A stretch of DNA of 64,000 bases from Pelagibacterium nitratireducens (GTDB lineage: Bacteria; Pseudomonadota; Alphaproteobacteria; Rhizobiales; Devosiaceae): assembly GCF_037044555.1 (NCBI RefSeq), contig NZ_CP146275.1, positions 62,001-126,000 of the forward strand. Reading direction: 5' to 3'. The translations under genes and the position numbers were made by a program. Within the stretch, counting starts at the first letter, position 1. Every line of letters begins with the position of its first letter. Shown here piece after piece: positions 21,906 to 62,634 of the stretch. Under the pieces are notes generated by a model that saw only the letters and a program-made list of their open reading frames with translations, did no database searches and was not told the origin of the DNA.

Positions 21906-22733
21906 TTACTGCCCGAGTGCGGCCAGAACACGGTTTCTGAGCGTTTCGGTTACGGCCGGCGCAACGCCGAACCACGCGCGAAACCCCGGAACCGCCTGAT
22001 GGAGCAGCATACCCAGCCCATCGACGCTGGCAAACCCCTCGGCCCGAGCCTGGGCCAAAAGGGGGGTAATGAGCGGTGTATAAACGATATCTGTGACCAC
22101 CGCCCCCTGCGCCAGAGGCGACAGATCGAGCCCATTGAACTGTGTGCCCTTCATGCCGACCGCGCTCGTGTTGACGAGCAGCCCCGCTCCCGCCATTCGC
22201 GAGCCGATCTCAGAAAGAGGCCCCGGAACGATCGTCGGGCCGAATTCGTCTGCCAGCGCCTGGGCCCGGCCCAATGTGCGGTTGATGAGCTCTATACGCG
22301 GCACGCCGCGGTCGACCAGGGCGGCCAGGATGGCCCGCGATGCGCCGCCGGCCCCGATCACCACCGCCGATCCAAGCGCCTCGTCCCAGCCCGATGCCTG
22401 GGCATCGAGATTGGCGAGAAACCCTATATAATCGGTGTTCGTTCCCCAGATCTTGCCGTTGTCGGCCACCAGGGTATTAACCGCACCGATCCGTCTGGCC
22501 AGCGGATCGACCTCATCGATCAGCCCCATCACCGCTTCCTTGTGGGGGATGGTGACATTGCCGCCCACGAATTCACCCCCGCGCAGCCGGGCTACCAAGC
22601 CGGCAAGATCGGACGGCGCAATTTCGATCGCTTCATAGCTGGCCTCGAGCCCATGCTCGGCAATCCAGCTCTGATGGATCAGAGGGGATTGGGAATGGGC
22701 GATGGGGTGACCGATGACAAAGGCTTTTTTCAT
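21906..22733 (-). CDS. aroE: Shikimate dehydrogenase (NADP+)
   Basis: Reduces 3-dehydroshikimate to shikimate in the chorismate pathway. The 275 aa show the substrate motif GHPIAHSQSPLIHQ (about 8-21), the catalytic Lys in NVTIPHKEAV (about 59-68) and the Rossmann motif GAGGASRAI (about 127-135). The NRT segment that follows the second beta strand is the usual NADP-specificity element. Its start overlaps the maf stop and its stop is 22 bp before coaE. Confidence 0.96.
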   Translation of the reverse strand: MKKAFVIGHPIAHSQSPLIHQSWIAEHGLEASYEAIEIAPSDLAGLVARLRGGEFVGGNVTIPHKEAVMGLIDEVDPLARRIGAVNTLVADNGKIWGTNTDYIGFLANLDAQASGWDEALGSAVVIGAGGASRAILAALVDRGVPRIELINRTLGRAQALADEFGPTIVPGPLSEIGSRMAGAGLLVNTSAVGMKGTQFNGLDLSPLAQGAVVTDIVYTPLITPLLAQARAEGFASVDGLGMLLHQAVPGFRAWFGVAPAVTETLRNRVLAALGQ

Positions 22734-23332
22734 GATCCCGGCTCAAAGCTTTCCGGCGCATGCTGTTCGAGCGCTGCCAGAAGCGGCAGAAGCGGCAGGC
22801 CCAGAATGGTGAAATAATCACCCTCGATGCGCTCGAACAGGCGGATTGAGGGCCCTTCGAGCCTATAGGCAGCGACCGAATCAAAAATTGCCTCGCCCTC
22901 GAGATCGAGCACGCGATCAACGGTTTTTCGGGTAAAGGGCTTAAAGGTCAGCACCGCGGTTTCGACAGCGCTCCAGACGATTTTTCCCCCGCGGGCCAGC
23001 GCAACACCCGAATGGAGCTGATGGGACTTGCCCGCCATGGCCATCAGCCGCTCGGCGGCATCTTGGCGGTCAAGCGGCTTGTGGAGGCCCTGGTGCTGGA
23101 AAGCAATCGTCTGATCGGCCCCGATTACAAGCGCCTGGGGTGTCATGGCGCTAACGGCAAGCGCCTTGGCCTGTGCCAAAAGAGATGCAAGGCCGGCGCG
23201 ATTCTCGCCGCTGGTCAAGGCCGCCTGTTCGATTTCACGCTCATCGACCCCGGCGCTGGCCACCGAAAACCGCAAGCCCGCGTTCTCGAGAAGGCTTTTC
23301 CGCGTTGTGCTTTTGGAGGCAAGGATCAACAT
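22730..23332 (-). CDS. maf: Maf family nucleotide pyrophosphatase
   Basis: House-cleaning pyrophosphatase that hydrolyses non-canonical or modified NTPs. The 200 aa begin with LILASKSTTRKSLLENAGL, equivalent to the LASxSxxR phosphate-binding motif but with Lys in place of the more usual small residue. GADQTIAF (about 75) and KPLDRQDAAERL (about 88) are also present. Maf subgroups differ in base preference; I cannot assign one. It is the first gene on the left of the putative oriC and is co-directional and overlapping with aroE. Confidence 0.9.
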   Translation of the reverse strand: MLILASKSTTRKSLLENAGLRFSVASAGVDEREIEQAALTSGENRAGLASLLAQAKALAVSAMTPQALVIGADQTIAFQHQGLHKPLDRQDAAERLMAMAGKSHQLHSGVALARGGKIVWSAVETAVLTFKPFTRKTVDRVLDLEGEAIFDSVAAYRLEGPSIRLFERIEGDYFTILGLPLLPLLAALEQHAPESFEPGS

Positions 23333-23533
23333 GGCCGGGCTTTTGCGATTGAAGATGGAACGAGCTTTTCCACATGCGCTCTCACAGTTAAAGCCCATTT
23401 CGGGTTCCGGCCGTTCGGGGGCGGAGTTTTCCCCAAAGGGCGATATTGGGTTAACAGTTGGTGAACTGGGGACAGCGCAGCGGCCCTGGGGACAAGACCG
23501 GGGAAAACCGTTCGCTGCGGCACCGGCTCAACG

Positions 23534-23548
23534 TTAATCTTTCATTAA
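23534..23548. promoter_or_regulatory. CtrA box 1 in putative oriC
   Basis: TTAA-TCTTTCA-TTAA matches the full CtrA consensus TTAA-N7-TTAA. In Caulobacter, CtrA bound at such sites blocks DnaA-driven initiation. Confidence 0.7.
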
Positions 23549-23568
23549 GGATGTGCACAGGCGATCTC

Positions 23569-23584
23569 TTAACGAAACGTTAAC
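23569..23584. promoter_or_regulatory. CtrA box 2 in putative oriC
   Basis: TTAA-CGAAACG-TTAAC matches TTAA-N7-TTAAC exactly. It begins 35 bp after box 1, so the two sites lie on nearly the same helical face. Confidence 0.7.
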
Positions 23585-23776
23585 GAAACCGGCGCGCCCT
23601 GATCTTTCGTCCCCGTTTTTCCGACAGGGTCCACACCCGTTCTGCCGCGCGAAACTGACGCAAGCCGATTTGGACGGGCCCGGTTGTGGGCTCGAAACAA
23701 TTGGTGCAAAACACAGCTATAAAGAAGAAGAAGACTCTTAAAGATAGATTCCTTACAGACCGAAGAGTTCAGGCAA

Positions 23777-24826
23777 TTGCAGTCTCCCTTACCCAAAATT
23801 CCAAGCGGAAAGCCGCTTCTCGATGCAGCGCATGGGATTCGGCAAAACCGCCCCCCTGTCTGGATCATGCGCCAGGCGGGACGCTACCTTCCCGAATATC
23901 GAGAGGTGCGCGAAAAGGCCGGAAGCTTTCTCGATCTTTGCTATTCGCCTGCTCTTGCCACCGAAGTCACGCTCCAGCCGTTACGCCGCTTCGATCTTGA
24001 TGCGGCGATCCTTTTTTCCGATATCCTGGTGATCCCCCATGCACTGGGCCAGGATGTCCGCTTTGCGCCGGGCGAAGGACCGATCCTCGATCCGATCGAC
24101 GAGACCACGATTGCAACGCTCAGGCCGGAAAAGGCTCTGGACAATCTCGAGAAGGTCCTTGAAGCGATTGATCGGATCAAGCTGGCTCTGAGCGAAAACA
24201 AGACGTTGATCGGGTTCTGTGGCGCCCCCTGGACGGTAGCGACCTACATGATCGGCGGCCGCGGCTCGCCCGACCAGGCTGCGGCGCGCCTGTTTGCGCT
24301 CCACCACCCGAAGGCCTTTGCCGCGCTGATCGATATTCTTGTCGAGGTTTCGGCCCAATACCTTGTCGCCCAGTTTCGCGCCGGAGCGGACATGGTGCAG
24401 CTTTTTGAAAGCTGGGCGCTCAACCTCGATGAAGACGCCTTTCGCACCCATGTGATCGAACCCAACCGGCGGATCGTCGAAAAGGTGCGCAGTTTTGTTC
24501 CCGATGCTCCGATCACCGGATTTCCGCGCGGCGCGGCAGGCATGCTTGCCGAATATGCGCAAAAGACGGGGGTGAGCGTGTTGGGGCTCGATTTTGCTAC
24601 GCCTCTGGCTTTCGCGTCATCGAACCTGCCCAAAACGTTGCCCGTACAGGGCAATCTCGATCCCCTGCGACTGGTTGCGGGCGGCGCGCAGATGGAAGAG
24701 CGCACCAACGCGATCATCGAGGCGTTTTCCGACCGGCCGCATATCTTCAATCTGGGCCATGGCATTGTGCCGCAAACCCCGATTGCACATGTTTCACGCC
24801 TTGTCGATGTCGTTCACGGGCGCTAA
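23777..24826 (+). CDS. hemE: Uroporphyrinogen decarboxylase
   Basis: Converts uroporphyrinogen III to coproporphyrinogen III in heme biosynthesis. The 349 aa include the signature PPVWIMRQAGRYLPEYREVR near the N-terminus and GFCGAPWTVATYMIGG (about 141-156). The only usable start is TTG at 23777: no ATG or GTG lies before the conserved region in this frame, and a stop occurs upstream (the TAA at about 23720). A rare start and a weak ribosome site suggest low expression. It is the first gene on the right of the putative origin, as in Caulobacter. Confidence 0.95.
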   Translation: MQSPLPKIPSGKPLLDAAHGIRQNRPPVWIMRQAGRYLPEYREVREKAGSFLDLCYSPALATEVTLQPLRRFDLDAAILFSDILVIPHALGQDVRFAPGEGPILDPIDETTIATLRPEKALDNLEKVLEAIDRIKLALSENKTLIGFCGAPWTVATYMIGGRGSPDQAAARLFALHHPKAFAALIDILVEVSAQYLVAQFRAGADMVQLFESWALNLDEDAFRTHVIEPNRRIVEKVRSFVPDAPITGFPRGAAGMLAEYAQKTGVSVLGLDFATPLAFASSNLPKTLPVQGNLDPLRLVAGGAQMEERTNAIIEAFSDRPHIFNLGHGIVPQTPIAHVSRLVDVVHGR

Positions 24827-26793: not shown

Positions 26794-28113
26794 ATGACTT
26801 TGATGCAGACCAGCACAACCATTGCCGCGCTATCCACCGGCAGCCTGCCTTCGGGCGTTGCAATTATCAGGCTGTCCGGTCCAAAGACCTTTGCGGCGGT
26901 CGAGGCTCTGTGCGGCAGTCTGCCGGCGTCCCGCACTCTGGCACGCAAGACGCTGATCCATCCGGAAACCGGGGAAGCCCTCGACCAGGGCCTCGTTGCC
27001 GTTTTCCCCGGGCCTCATTCCTTCACCGGGCAGGATTGTGCCGAGCTTCAGGTTCATGGTTCACCGGCCGGCGTAAAGGCCATTCTGTCCACGCTGACCA
27101 CCTGTTGCGGCCTTGAATTGGCCGGGGCCGGCGATTTCACCCGCCGCGCCTTTGAAAACGGCAAGCTCGATCTTACGGCCGTTGAGGGTCTTGGTGACCT
27201 CTTGGCGGCCGAAACCGAATCCCAGCGACGTCAGGCCCTCTCGCGCCTGGAAGGCGGTCTGGCCGATCAAGTTATGATCTGGCGGGCGTTGTTGCTGGAC
27301 GCGCGAGCCGAGATCGAAGCGCGTCTCGATTTTTCAGACGAAGACGACGTACCATTCGCCCTACCGCATCATTTTATCGCCGATTTGCAGGCGCTTGGCC
27401 GCAAGCTCGCCGACGCACTGGCGAGCTATGACAGGGGCCGCATCGTCCGGGAGGGTTTCCGAATCGTCCTGGCTGGCGCACCCAACGCCGGCAAATCGAG
27501 CCTGCTCAATCGCCTGGCCGGCTCCGAGGTCGCGATCGTCACCGCCGAAGCGGGTACCACGCGCGATACCAAGGATGTCGCCATCGATCTCGGTGGTCAG
27601 CTCATCACGCTCACCGATACCGCCGGATTGCGCGAGACAGACAGTCTGGCGGAAGGCGAAGGCATCAGACGGGCAAAAAGGGCTATGGAAAGCGCCGATC
27701 TCGTCCTCTGGCTGCTTGCTCCGGACGCAGTAAGTGCACCGGACATTGAAATGGACGTTCCCGTCTGGCGCCTGGGCACCAAATCGGATCTCGGGCGGGG
27801 GGCCCTTGTGGTCGATCTGTCGCTGTCGGTCACCAGCGGAGAGGGTATCGAAACCTTGCTAAAGCGCATCGAAAGCCATATTGAAGGCCGCCTCGGTGCG
27901 AGTGAATCAAGCCTGGTCAGCCATCTGCGCGACAAAGACGCGCTCGAGCGGGCGATCGTCAGCGTTGAAACGGCATTGGAGCGGATCGACCAGCCCGAAC
28001 TCTGCGCTGAAGACTTGCGCCGGGCTGCCGACACTCTGGCCGGACTGATCGGACTTATGGACAATGAAGCGGTATTGGACCAACTGTTTGCCGGTTTTTG
28101 CATCGGGAAGTGA
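26794..28113 (+). CDS. mnmE: tRNA uridine-5-carboxymethylaminomethyl(34) synthesis GTPase MnmE
   Basis: With MnmG it modifies U34 of tRNAs reading NNA/NNG codons. About 439 aa. The N-terminal folate-binding domain starts with TIAALSTGSLPSGVAIIRLSG; the embedded G domain has P-loop GAPNAGKSSLLN (about 229-240) and DTAGLRE (about 276); the C-terminal motif CIGK (C-x-G-K) at the very end carries the catalytic Cys. ATG at 26794 or 26803 are both possible, with no clear ribosome site. It directly precedes mnmG with a spacer that holds three parS-like sites. Confidence 0.96.
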   Translation: MTLMQTSTTIAALSTGSLPSGVAIIRLSGPKTFAAVEALCGSLPASRTLARKTLIHPETGEALDQGLVAVFPGPHSFTGQDCAELQVHGSPAGVKAILSTLTTCCGLELAGAGDFTRRAFENGKLDLTAVEGLGDLLAAETESQRRQALSRLEGGLADQVMIWRALLLDARAEIEARLDFSDEDDVPFALPHHFIADLQALGRKLADALASYDRGRIVREGFRIVLAGAPNAGKSSLLNRLAGSEVAIVTAEAGTTRDTKDVAIDLGGQLITLTDTAGLRETDSLAEGEGIRRAKRAMESADLVLWLLAPDAVSAPDIEMDVPVWRLGTKSDLGRGALVVDLSLSVTSGEGIETLLKRIESHIEGRLGASESSLVSHLRDKDALERAIVSVETALERIDQPELCAEDLRRAADTLAGLIGLMDNEAVLDQLFAGFCIGK

Positions 28114-28126
28114 TTCACGTGAAACA
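28111..28126. promoter_or_regulatory. parS site 1 (mnmE-mnmG spacer)
   Basis: TGATTCACGTGAAACA matches 15 of 16 positions of the parS consensus TGTTTCACGTGAAACA. It starts on the TGA stop of mnmE. Confidence 0.75.
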
Positions 28127-30082: not shown

Positions 30083-30738
30083 CCGGTGATTCGCAGCGCT
30101 TGGCGGACCTTGAGCGCCACGGTGCGTCAATGTTCGGCAATGTTGAGGCCACTTTCACTCAACTCCATAGATTTTCGGACCATCTTTTGCGCTGGCAGAA
30201 GGTTCAGAATCTGGTTTCACGTGAAACACCGGGGGATCTGTGGTCGCGCCATATCCTTGATTCGCTTCAGATTTTGCCGCTGATCGGCCCAATTTCCGGG
30301 CCATTGCGCATTCTCGATATCGGCAGCGGCGGGGGTTTTCCCGCGATTCCCCTGGCCATCGCGTTGCAGGACGTCGATTTTTCCATGCATCTGATCGAAT
30401 CCAACACACGAAAATGTGCGTTCCTGCGGGCCACGGCGCGCGAATTTGACCTGCCGATAACAGTTCATACTGCCAGAATAGAGGCGGTTCCGCCCGAAAT
30501 TGTTGGGGTAGTGGATCTTTTTACCTCCCGGGCCCTGGCGCCCTTACCCTTGCTCTTGACCTATATCCACCGTTTTTGGAGCCCGCAAAGCCGCGCCATT
30601 CTGCATAAAGGGCGCGAAAATGGGGAAGAACTGAAATCAGCGGATTCAGATTGGGTTTACGATGTGTTAAAGCATCAAAGTGCGACGGACAAAGACGGCG
30701 TTCTGCTCGAGTTTTCCCATCTGAGGCCTCGCACCTAA
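30079..30738 (+). CDS. rsmG: 16S rRNA (guanine(527)-N7)-methyltransferase RsmG
   Basis: Methylates G527 of 16S rRNA using S-adenosylmethionine. The 219 aa contain the SAM-binding motif [16 protein letters not shown] (about 76-91) preceded by the conserved [20 protein letters not shown]. The codons for VSRET are themselves the parS palindrome, so this stretch carries two kinds of information. The start overlaps mnmG. The frame is open upstream inside mnmG but conserved sequence begins at this ATG. It is followed by parA 37 bp later. Confidence 0.95.
30213..30228. promoter_or_regulatory. parS site 4, inside rsmG, perfect palindrome
   Basis: GGTTTCACGTGAAACA contains the perfect 14-base palindrome GTTTCACGTGAAAC (30214-30227) and matches 15 of 16 consensus positions. 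It encodes Val-Ser-Arg-Glu-Thr in rsmG and lies about 550 bp before parA. Confidence 0.8.
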
Positions 30739-30775: not shown

Positions 30776-31576
30776 ATGCATCCGCGTATCATTACACTCG
30801 CCAATCAAAAGGGTGGTGTCGGCAAGACGACGACGGCCATTAACCTTGCAACTGCCCTCGCCGCGATTGGCGAGCGTGTTCTGATCGTCGATCTCGATCC
30901 GCAGGGCAATGCCTCCACCGGGCTTGGGCTCGGCCGCCAGCAGCGTGAACGCTCGTCCTATGACCTGCTGCTCAACGAATCGACCGTCAAGGACGCGGCG
31001 GTGCTTACCAATGTACCCAACGTCGCGATCGTTCCCTCGACCATGGATCTGCTGGGTGTGGAATTGACGATCGCCGCCGAGCGGGATCGGGCCTTTCGTT
31101 TGAAGTCGGCATTGGATAACGTTGCCGAAGTGACCATCGATAACAAGCCGATCACCTATGTGCTGATCGACTGCCCGCCGTCGCTGAATCTGCTCACCAT
31201 CAACGCGCTCACCGCTGCCGACGCGGTGCTTGTGCCGTTACAGTGCGAATTTTTCGCGCTGGAGGGTCTGAGCCAATTGCTTCAAACCATTGAGCAAATC
31301 CGCTCGACACTCAATCCGCGCCTGTCGATCCAGGGCGTGGTGATGACCATGTTCGACAAACGCAACAATCTGTCCGAGCAGGTGCTCAGCGATGTGCGCG
31401 AGCATATGGGAACGCTGGTCTACGACACCGTCATTCCCCGCAATGTGCGGCTTTCCGAGGCGCCCAGCTATGGTAAGCCGGCTTTGCTGTATGACCTTAA
31501 ATGCGCCGGAAGTCAGGCCTATCTTCGATTGGCCACCGAAGTAATCAAGCGCGAACGCCAGTTGCGGGCGGCCTGA
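30776..31576 (+). CDS. parA: Chromosome partitioning ATPase ParA
   Basis: Deviant Walker-type ATPase that binds DNA non-specifically and drives segregation of ParB-parS complexes. The 266 aa have the Walker A motif KGGVGKTTT (12-20) with the signature Lys, switch segment IVDLDPQGNAS (about 40-50) and VLIDCPPSL (about 126). A strong GGAGG ribosome site precedes the ATG. Its TGA overlaps an upstream in-frame ATG of parB, consistent with coupled translation. Confidence 0.97.
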   Translation: MHPRIITLANQKGGVGKTTTAINLATALAAIGERVLIVDLDPQGNASTGLGLGRQQRERSSYDLLLNESTVKDAAVLTNVPNVAIVPSTMDLLGVELTIAAERDRAFRLKSALDNVAEVTIDNKPITYVLIDCPPSLNLLTINALTAADAVLVPLQCEFFALEGLSQLLQTIEQIRSTLNPRLSIQGVVMTMFDKRNNLSEQVLSDVREHMGTLVYDTVIPRNVRLSEAPSYGKPALLYDLKCAGSQAYLRLATEVIKRERQLRAA

Positions 31577-31587
31577 TGGAGAAGACC

Positions 31588-32472
31588 ATGAACGATAAAC
31601 CCACTCGTCTCGGCCGCGGTCTGGCCGCTCTGATCGGCGATATGCAGCCTCTTGAAGCGGCGCCCCGCCAGGCAGAAGCCTCCACAGGCACCCGCCGGCT
31701 GCCCGTCGAATTCATAATTGCCAACCGGGCCAATCCGCGTAAGGATTTCGACGCCGAGCTGCTTGAGGATCTGACCAATTCGATCCGTGAAAAAGGCGTA
31801 ATGCAGCCGCTTCTGGTGCGCCCGAGCGATCAGGGGCCCGATGTCTTTGAAATCATCGCGGGAGAGCGGCGCTGGCGCGCGGCGCAGCGCGCAGGACTGC
31901 ACGAGGTTCCCGTCATCATCCGTGAGGTCGATGACAAGGAAGCGCTTGAGCTGGCAATCATCGAAAACGTCCAGCGCGCCGACCTCAATCCGCTTGAAGA
32001 AGCCCAAGGCTATGGGCAGCTGATCGAACAGTTCGACTATACCCAAAACGATCTGGCGCACGTCATTGGCAAGTCCCGCTCCCATGTTGCCAACACGCTC
32101 AGGTTGTTGCGGCTGCCCGACGAGGTCCAGCACATGCTCGAGCGCGGCGAGCTTACCGCGGGGCATGCCAGAACGTTGATTACCTCGGATGATCCATTGG
32201 CTTTGGCACGCCGAATCGTTGACGCCGGGCTGTCGGTGCGCGAGGCCGAAGCGTTGCATCAGCAGGGGGCGGAAGCGCGTCGGCCGCAACCGGCCGGCGA
32301 AAAGCGGCCGGCGTCGAAAGATGCGGACACACTGGCCCTGGAAAAGCAGCTGTCGGACGCCTTGGGCCTTTCGGTGACGCTCGATCACAAGGATCGTGGC
32401 GGCAAACTGGAAATCCGCTACAAAACGCTTGAGCAGCTCGACGGAATTTGCGCGCGCCTCATGCCGCATTGA
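31588..32472 (+). CDS. parB: Chromosome partitioning protein ParB
   Basis: CTP-dependent DNA clamp that loads at parS and spreads on flanking DNA. The 294 aa start with the ParA-stimulating RLGRGLAALIGD motif; the N-terminal CTP-binding domain has GERRWRAAQRAG (about 90-101) and ENVQRADLNPLEEAQGY (about 124-140); the HTH follows (LAHVIGKSRSHVANTLRLLRLP, about 155-176); the C-terminal dimerisation segment ends the protein. ATG at 31588 has GGAGAAG upstream and fits the family; an ATG at 31576 overlapping the parA stop is an alternative. Confidence 0.97.
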   Translation: MNDKPTRLGRGLAALIGDMQPLEAAPRQAEASTGTRRLPVEFIIANRANPRKDFDAELLEDLTNSIREKGVMQPLLVRPSDQGPDVFEIIAGERRWRAAQRAGLHEVPVIIREVDDKEALELAIIENVQRADLNPLEEAQGYGQLIEQFDYTQNDLAHVIGKSRSHVANTLRLLRLPDEVQHMLERGELTAGHARTLITSDDPLALARRIVDAGLSVREAEALHQQGAEARRPQPAGEKRPASKDADTLALEKQLSDALGLSVTLDHKDRGGKLEIRYKTLEQLDGICARLMPH

Positions 32473-61863: not shown

Positions 61864-62634
61864 ATGGTTCAGACCCAACCCAAACCCGCCGAGCCGGGAT
61901 GGTTCACCCGCATCGCCCATCCGGGGATGTTTATGGGGTGGTCGCGCCATCTCGTCGTTCCGCTCTCTGTCGTGACCGGGCTGGCCTTTGCGGTGGGGCT
62001 CTATTTTTCGTTCCTTGCCTCGCCGGCCGATTATCAGATGGGGGACACAGTGCGCATGATGTATGTGCACGTCCCCAGCGCCTGGCTGAGCCAGTTCTGT
62101 TACGCCGTGATGTTTTTTTCGGCCATCGGCACGCTGGTCTGGCGCCATCCCATGGCCGATGTCAGCCAGAAGGCCGCCGTTCCTCTTGGTGCCGCCTTTA
62201 CCGCGCTTGCCCTTTTCACCGGCTCGATGTGGGGCCGGCCCACATGGGGCACGTTCTGGGAATGGGATGGGCGCATGACCTCGACGCTGGTCCTGCTGTT
62301 CATCTATCTCGGCCTTATCGCCCTGTGGCGGGCGTTTGACGATCAGCTCAAGGCGGCTCGGATCGTTGCGGTGCTGACTTTGGTGGGCGCCATCAATATC
62401 CCCATCATCAAGTTTTCCGTCGATTGGTGGCAGACCCTGCACCAGCCCGCGTCCGTGTTCAGAACCGATGGTCCGACGGTCGATGGCTCGATCCTCGTGC
62501 CGCTGCTCGTGATGACGCTGGCGTTTTCTCTACTGTTCTTGACTTTGCATCTTGTGCGCATGCGGACCGAAGTCACCAAGCGTCGCATCCGCTCGCTCGA
62601 GTTGGCGCAGGCCCGCGCGGGAGAAGGTGCATGA
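61864..62634 (+). CDS. ccmC: Heme exporter protein CcmC (heme-handling protein)
   Basis: Inner-membrane protein that presents heme to CcmE in the periplasm. The 256 aa contain the Trp-rich heme-binding motif WGRPTWGTFWEWDGRMTS (about 121-138), the flanking heme-ligand histidines MMYVHVPSAW (about 60-69) and the SVDWWQTLHQPASVF segment (about 180-194). Six membrane helices are seen. The start follows the ccmB stop with no gap; the stop overlaps the ccmD ATG. Confidence 0.96.
   Translation: MVQTQPKPAEPGWFTRIAHPGMFMGWSRHLVVPLSVVTGLAFAVGLYFSFLASPADYQMGDTVRMMYVHVPSAWLSQFCYAVMFFSAIGTLVWRHPMADVSQKAAVPLGAAFTALALFTGSMWGRPTWGTFWEWDGRMTSTLVLLFIYLGLIALWRAFDDQLKAARIVAVLTLVGAINIPIIKFSVDWWQTLHQPASVFRTDGPTVDGSILVPLLVMTLAFSLLFLTLHLVRMRTEVTKRRIRSLELAQARAGEGA

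Follow-up and report, generated by a model that had tools for sequence, protein, structure and literature searches.

CtrA is regarded as the alphaproteobacterial "master regulator," yet CtrA sites at origins of replication have been reported almost only in Caulobacters. The Caulobacter crescentus origin, Cori, lies between hemE and a DUF299 gene, and the cited excerpt of a 2015 review describes weak G and W DnaA boxes from which CtrA excludes DnaA (PMC4468827). CtrA sites were unseen in origins outside Caulobacter, Rickettsia prowazekii possibly apart, according to the same excerpt (PMC4468827). In the passages cited here, the Sinorhizobium meliloti origin lacks a CtrA motif and was unbound in ChIP-Seq (PMC4433202), Brucella abortus CtrA showed no binding at its origin (PMC2877005), and CtrA of Hyphomonas neptunium bound DNA adjoining the origin in ChIP-seq (PMC7200025). 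The hemE-type origins of the Rickettsiales (Rickettsia and Wolbachia) were predicted in silico from hemE together with DnaA and CtrA sites, again as given in part of the source (PMC1914354). Among the papers listed by a literature search, none concerned Devosiaceae origins, judging by titles.

We analyzed a 64,000-nucleotide stretch of DNA (the window; positions 62001 to 126000 of contig C1) from a Devosiaceae bacterium near Pelagibacterium. Judging from sequence comparisons, its 444-bp maf-hemE gap is very probably the chromosomal origin (oriC), and very probably a Caulobacter-type hemE origin that bears CtrA boxes. We place a probability of roughly three in four on the joint claim that the gap is oriC and that CtrA would restrain initiation there.

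The gap resembles Cori, as far as the latter is described in our source, in its hemE side, weak DnaA boxes, several CtrA boxes, and A/T-rich part. It differs in that maf directly borders it and in having two exact CtrA boxes and one degenerate box, compared with five CtrA boxes in Cori. It also has no TGATCCACA G-box and no IHF site that might overlap a CtrA site: WATCAANNNNTTR, which we take to be the IHF consensus, is absent from the gap and occurs in 2 of 39 Devosiaceae loci. The hemE-side gene neighborhood is presumably the one found at the hemE-type origins of S. meliloti and other Rhizobiaceae. The 64 other Hyphomicrobiales loci that we compared show an equal enrichment of DnaA boxes, whereas 58 of these non-Devosiaceae loci lack an exact CtrA box. 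The likeness to H. neptunium, CtrA at the origin, is one of description, drawn from an excerpt of the source. For the Rickettsiales, origins were predicted in silico from this set of features, and the part of the source cited describes CtrA sites as patchy there too (PMC1914354).

The maf-hemE gap and its elements

The genome comprises 3.85 Mb (3,854,867 bases) in two contigs, C1 of 3,695,125 bases and C2 of 159,742 bases. Among the named hemE matches listed, identity was highest to UBA3584 (91%), followed by Pelagibacterium luteolum (74%) and then several Devosia. The gap, at C1 85333 to 85776, begins beside the maf start at 23332 (minus strand) and ends at the TTG start of hemE at 23777 (plus strand). 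It is a hemE-bordered intergenic region in a conserved neighborhood, as expected of a hemE-type oriC, with the NCBIfam gene order dnaQ-coaE-aroE-maf, gap, hemE-rho-mnmE-mnmG-parA-like-parB. The features of the locus are collected in Table 1.

Table 1. Features of the proposed origin and its surroundings (window coordinates)
Feature	Position	Strand	Sequence or remark
maf, Maf-like nucleotide pyrophosphatase, left flank	22730..23332	-	NCBIfam, best E 7.8e-64, below the model's cut-off
Proposed oriC	23333..23776	.	444 bp separating the divergent genes maf (minus) and hemE (plus)
DnaA-box-like, by maf start	23366..23374	+	TTTTCCACA, one mismatch to TTATCCACA
Degenerate DnaA box	23427..23435	+	TTTTCCCCA; first-pass word TTTTCCCC also at 23427
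Third, degenerate CtrA box	23451..23465	.	TTAACAGTTGGTGAA
Repeat, two copies	23466..23494	-	CTGGGGACA at 23466 and 23486, 20-bp spacing
Degenerate DnaA box	23487..23495	-	TTGTCCCCA, overlaps second CTGGGGACA copy
Degenerate DnaA box	23499..23507	-	TTTTCCCCG; plus-strand reading CGGGGAAAA
CtrA box 1	23534..23548	.	TTAATCTTTCATTAA; no mismatch in 9 of the 11 congeneric loci, one in each of the remaining 2
Weak DnaA-box-like CACAG word between CtrA boxes 1 and 2	23552..23561	+	TGTGCACAGG
CtrA box 2	23569..23583	.	TTAACGAAACGTTAA; no mismatch in any of the 11 congeneric loci
hemE-side core	23684..23716	+	TTGTGG, nine bases, AATTGGTGCAAAACACAG (23699-23716)
A/T-rich probable unwinding element	23717..23776	+	AAGAAGAAGAAG at 23722-23733; GANTC sites at 23733 and 23747
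hemE, uroporphyrinogen decarboxylase, right flank	23777..24826	+	NCBIfam TIGR01464, E 2e-119
parS-like site	28111..28126	.	TGATTCACGTGAAACA, one mismatch; C1:90111
parS-like site	30213..30228	.	GGTTTCACGTGAAACA, one mismatch; C1:92213
ParA-like gene	30776..31576	+	NCBIfam matches below cut-off
ParB-domain gene	31579..32472	+	NCBIfam TIGR00180, above cut-off

A letter-for-letter check recovered every sequence word that the first-pass annotation had placed in the gap, including GGGGAAAA at 23500. The exact DnaA box TTATCCACA is absent from the 444 bp in either orientation and only degenerate boxes occur, which supports the earlier suggestion that initiation may use such boxes. Several are retained among 11 congeneric loci: TTTT[CT]CACA occupies the aligned place of the 23366 box in 10 of them, and TTATCCCCA that of the 23427 box in two (L087 and L091). 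The two exact TTAA-N7-TTAA sites (a Cori-type oriC has two or more) lie 35 bp apart here and 34 to 40 bp apart across the congeneric loci, with CACAG between them in nine; the degenerate box at 23451 aligns with an exact TTAAN7TTAA in four. The A/T-rich end noted earlier was confirmed, with 62% A+T in 23700 to 23776 compared with 46% for the whole gap. AAGAAGAAGAAG and the A-rich trinucleotides beside the core are, we assume, DnaA-trio-like, and the hemE-adjacent core with these trinucleotides is the probable unwinding side of the origin.

The genome (3,854,867 bases) contains 27 copies of the motif TTAAN7TTAA and 23 of a reversed control pattern; two or more copies arose in 1 of 3,000 dinucleotide shuffles of the gap. 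Four boxes of the class TTDTCCMCR, defined only after the gap's boxes had been seen, are present in the gap where 0.098 are expected, a number reached in none of 3,000 dinucleotide shuffles. In a scan for this class over 1.55 Mb (42%) of C1, the gap was the single best 444-bp window (4 boxes, compared with 3 in the next independent windows and a mean of 0.049), and among the 12 windows listed only the two inside the gap contain any CtrA box. A plain scan for TTATCCACA with one or two mismatches gave the gap a score of 4.0, tied for places 8 to 14 of the 15 windows listed, the best scoring 5.0. The ranking within the genome is therefore partly post hoc, since the gap comes first only with the class chosen after its boxes were seen. 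The DnaA-box counts across species used plain mismatch thresholds and hence are not post hoc.

The position of hemE relative to the replication terminus also fits an origin. Each of the nine Devosiaceae chromosomes assembled as one main contig has a dif-like site, TTCGCATAATATATATTATG (with two mismatches in G030). By hand calculation, the two hemE-to-dif arms differ by a ratio of 1.00 to 1.14 in all nine, which places hemE opposite the terminus. The right and left arms, in kilobases, are 1908/1787 in the genome studied (G000, dif at 1.994 Mb of C1), 1904/1984 in G001, 1895/2050 in G008, 2004/1926 in G009, 1640/1667 in G012, 2161/2468 in G017, 1670/1668 in G019, 2105/2326 in G026, and 1902/1879 in G030; the longer arm is the right one in four and the left one in five. 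Only two sites in the genome match, with at most one mismatch, what we take to be the parS consensus, and they lie 4.3 and 6.4 kb from hemE. The 160-kb contig C2 carries its own dif-like site (C2:42260-42279). The single chromosome of G001 has a second such site with two mismatches (C1:3353530-3353549), possibly from a fused secondary replicon.

Conservation of the hemE locus among relatives

We compared 30 hemE loci from the organism's own family with the best 80 of 587 matches; removal of those with identical 500 bp upstream reduced the 110 loci to 103, of which 39 are from Devosiaceae and 64 from other Hyphomicrobiales. Two loci titled only as Hyphomicrobiales (L122 and L126) were counted as Devosiaceae by hemE identity (70% and 67%). 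With at most one mismatch, the Devosiaceae gaps contain 1.85 DnaA boxes each, compared with 0.062 in shuffles, an approximately 30-fold enrichment, and the 64 other loci contain 2.25, compared with 0.074. A cluster of DnaA boxes beyond chance, as in a hemE-type oriC, is thus a property of the 39 Devosiaceae gaps taken together.

Exact CtrA boxes number 1.54 per gap in Devosiaceae, compared with 0.006 in shuffles, and are present in 36 of the 39 loci. They are kept although most of the sequence around them has diverged. The other Hyphomicrobiales loci average 0.11 (0.009 in shuffles), with a box in only six: two Bartonella, three Cohaesibacter, and one uncultured. The count of 6 of 64 rests on an uneven sample of the order, taken from the best 80 of 587 matches and mostly Rhizobiaceae- or Phyllobacteriaceae-like by title. 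Elsewhere in the order, 19 further families were sampled by one genome each, and 7 of them have an exact CtrA box in the 700 bp preceding hemE, a count made without a shuffle control. The 19 are the 20 fetched minus L262, which has 12 bp of upstream sequence; three further order-level genomes, G048, G056, and G057, each with a hemE match, fall outside this sample. Given these two counts, CtrA boxes at the hemE origin are no Devosiaceae invention: as read from the sequences, they are scarce in the 64 other loci and patchily distributed.

Other elements are shared more widely or less. GANTC occurs 4.23 times per Devosiaceae locus (1.37 in shuffles) and 4.38 times per locus elsewhere in the order (1.92), and the last 100 bp before hemE contain it in 37 of 39 and 55 of 64 loci, respectively. 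The core word AATTNNTGCAAAACACNG, allowing up to three mismatches, is found in 38 of 39 Devosiaceae loci but in 2 of 64 others; in most Devosiaceae loci it is preceded by TTGTGG, which is missing or altered in some, and followed by A-rich trinucleotides. Many of the other Hyphomicrobiales (L128 to L191) have at the corresponding place beside hemE a block like ...CACAGACTCTAAGAATCAGAA, rich in GANTC (CcrM) sites.

Strand composition and competing locations for the origin

The first-pass reading of the gap as oriC is well supported by synteny, the position of hemE opposite dif, the nearby parS-like sites, DnaA-box enrichment, and the conserved core, but its expectation of a GC-skew minimum at the gap failed, and a minimum elsewhere was among the outcomes that it had named as refuting. 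GC skew is positive in 70 of 83 segments of C1 (mean, +0.045), and after detrending its maximum lies at 2.01 Mb, close to dif, and its minimum near 460 kb, compared with 85 kb for the gap. We rejected GC skew as an origin finder because its sign is positive almost everywhere, and we judge the test uninformative in Devosiaceae rather than fatal to an oriC at hemE. The skew is positive in both replichores (+0.051 and +0.034), gene orientation does not explain the departure from strand parity, and third-position skew corrected for coding strand shows no sign change between the arms, being positive on average in both. In all nine Devosiaceae genomes named above, plasmids and second contigs included in the count, GGGNNGGG is 1.21- to 1.67-fold more frequent on the hemE strand than on the other. 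Three other Hyphomicrobiales show an excess of the same sign, weak in two (1.06 and 1.09) and within the Devosiaceae range in G052 (1.24).

Locally, A/T skew turns from plus to minus at hemE in 20-kb bins in all four genomes (the right bin of G009 covers only 5 kb), to which divergent local gene orientation could contribute. Whole-chromosome GC skew, combined skew, and the polarity of the FtsK-type word GGGNAGGG do not favor hemE. In scans with dif fixed, the A/T contrast was best at about 3.42 Mb (0.821, compared with 0.793 at hemE), and the GC plus A/T contrast was best at 3.36 to 3.40 Mb (2.046, compared with 1.696 at 3.625 Mb and 1.556 at hemE). These scans slightly to clearly favor 3.36 to 3.42 Mb and count against an oriC at hemE.

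The polarity of GGGNAGGG switches twice in the genome studied, once exactly around dif (1,991,353 to 1,996,545) and once at C1 3,622,176 to 3,630,604 (addB/addA-accD), approximately 155 kb from hemE in the direction of maf. The true origin might then lie at this second switch (C1 3.622 to 3.631 Mb) or elsewhere on the maf side, leaving the hemE gap as a conserved relic or regulatory region. We regard this as quite improbable, despite the sharpness of the switch, its occurrence at the same genes in G009, the preference of combined skew for a site on that side, and the rank of GGGCAGGG, a form of GGGNAGGG, as the 8-mer with the strongest polarity over the two arms in the sequence examined. Among the windows listed from a scan that fully covered 3.558 to 3.695 Mb, none is a DnaA-box cluster at that place (one lone exact TTATCCACA lies at 3,591,931), and an origin there would give arms of 2.06 and 1.63 Mb (hand calculation). 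The switch also falls at other genes in G030 (about -78 to -104 kb) and G017 (near -40 kb, noisy). In four Devosiaceae genomes, GGGNAGGG keeps the right-arm sign across the 40 kb left of hemE (18:2 and 14:2). Near-origin polarity of this word is nevertheless weak evidence, because within 6 kb right of hemE it runs 10:20 against the right-arm sign (16 Devosiaceae loci) and within 60 kb of hemE in Mesorhizobium it is unpolarized (left, 5:3; right, 3:4).

Origins adjacent to dnaA are common in bacteria, and in the plain mismatch scan a window near dnaA, inside an ORF at C1 4263, scores as high as the gap. The first-pass annotation had named a strong cluster of DnaA boxes at dnaA as a result that would speak against the gap. 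A cluster stronger than that of the gap was not clearly found there: the 600 bp upstream of dnaA contain no degenerate DnaA box and no CtrA box. The distance of dnaA from hemE varies (about -86 kb in G000, -115 kb in G009, and -140 kb with inversion in G017), and dnaA was not found in the stretch of G030 examined, whereas hemE is constantly opposite dif. An origin at dnaA, at the start of C1, therefore seems very improbable indeed, and the maf-hemE gap is the location that we prefer.

Three further indicators were set aside as origin finders. The polarity of GGGNAGGG pinpoints dif but switches again 155 kb away from hemE, at a place that varies among genera. Among 6- and 7-mers, those with the strongest polarity were mostly rich in G/C and mainly reflected the one-signed skew, and hence were uninformative. 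The search for the 16S rRNA family, intended for its orientation, came back empty in all 12 genomes and also missed 5 of 14 control genomes, and hence was uninformative.

In Devosiaceae, G is in excess on the hemE-coding strand along most or all of the chromosome, with the same sign in the three other Hyphomicrobiales, and in four Devosiaceae genomes the FtsK-type polarity turns 40 to 180 kb to the maf side of hemE. On these grounds we raise, as a long shot, the idea that Devosiaceae chromosomes are copied by two nonequivalent forks, a long-standing asymmetry in which the rightward fork could copy more or initiation could be displaced to the maf side of hemE. If the forks are unequal, CtrA boxes at oriC would gate an unequal pair.

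CtrA and the proposed control of initiation

The genome encodes a CtrA orthologue (C1:944821-945486) with 84% identity to the query, which we take to be the Caulobacter CtrA sequence. In the sequence examined, 11 of 13 TTAAN7TTAA sites are not within a called ORF; nine of the 11 are beyond the gap, and each of these nine is 15 to 84 bp from a gene start. The neighboring genes encode FliX, a GGDEF protein, a GGDEF-EAL protein, a sigma-54-type response regulator, a cell-wall hydrolase (two sites), an Antibiotic_NAT-family acetyltransferase back to back with a lytic transglycosylase, a metallo-beta-lactamase-fold protein back to back with a protein without a Pfam match, and one more protein without a match. 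CtrA controls flagellar, cyclic-di-GMP, and cell-wall genes in Caulobacter. The flagellar, cyclic-di-GMP, and cell-wall neighbors thus support TTAAN7TTAA as the CtrA box of this organism, the remaining neighbors being neutral. Exact CtrA boxes form just one other close pair, with 17-bp spacing, at C1 3607215 and 3607232 (L060:3215-3246); it lies 67 to 84 bp before a 203-amino-acid cell-wall hydrolase gene.

The placement of these nine sites would also suit another role for the boxes in the gap: the gap could be oriC while the boxes serve as promoter operators through which CtrA controls hemE or maf transcription, any effect on initiation being indirect. The distance of the gap's boxes from the hemE start, however, is 208 and 243 bp, and from the maf start no less than 200 bp; the boxes have the DnaA boxes on one side and the conserved unwinding-side core on the other, and hemE is a housekeeping gene. 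We consider a purely transcriptional role unlikely and favor direct restraint of initiation by CtrA. The earlier proposal that CtrA gates replication is accordingly plausible, and is strengthened by the boxes in 36 of 39 Devosiaceae loci, although gating itself is something we infer from sequence.

We propose that DnaA would be recruited by the weak maf-side boxes TTTTCCACA, TTTTCCCCA, TTGTCCCCA, and TTTTCCCCG and would open the A/T-rich stretch by the TTGTGG / TGCAAAACACAG core adjoining hemE. Phosphorylated CtrA would occupy the two TTAA-N7-TTAA boxes, and probably also the degenerate third; the two boxes flank the CACAG word and separate the DnaA boxes from the unwinding side. Bound CtrA~P may then hinder DnaA assembly, by analogy with Caulobacter, where CtrA excludes DnaA from weak boxes, so that initiation would be restrained until CtrA is removed. 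In Caulobacter, loss of CtrA binding at the origin disturbed the normal cycle only slightly and had consequences chiefly under nutrient and antibiotic stress, in the account excerpted here (PMC4468827), and the phenotype to be expected may therefore be subtle.

A CtrA-box origin in Devosiaceae matters because CtrA is reported not to bind the origins of S. meliloti and B. abortus and because the 2015 review saw almost no such sites elsewhere. With a Hyphomicrobiales family that has kept the boxes, and boxes in 7 of 19 further families sampled, the question of retention or repeated gain of CtrA control at the origin becomes testable in Devosia and Pelagibacterium.
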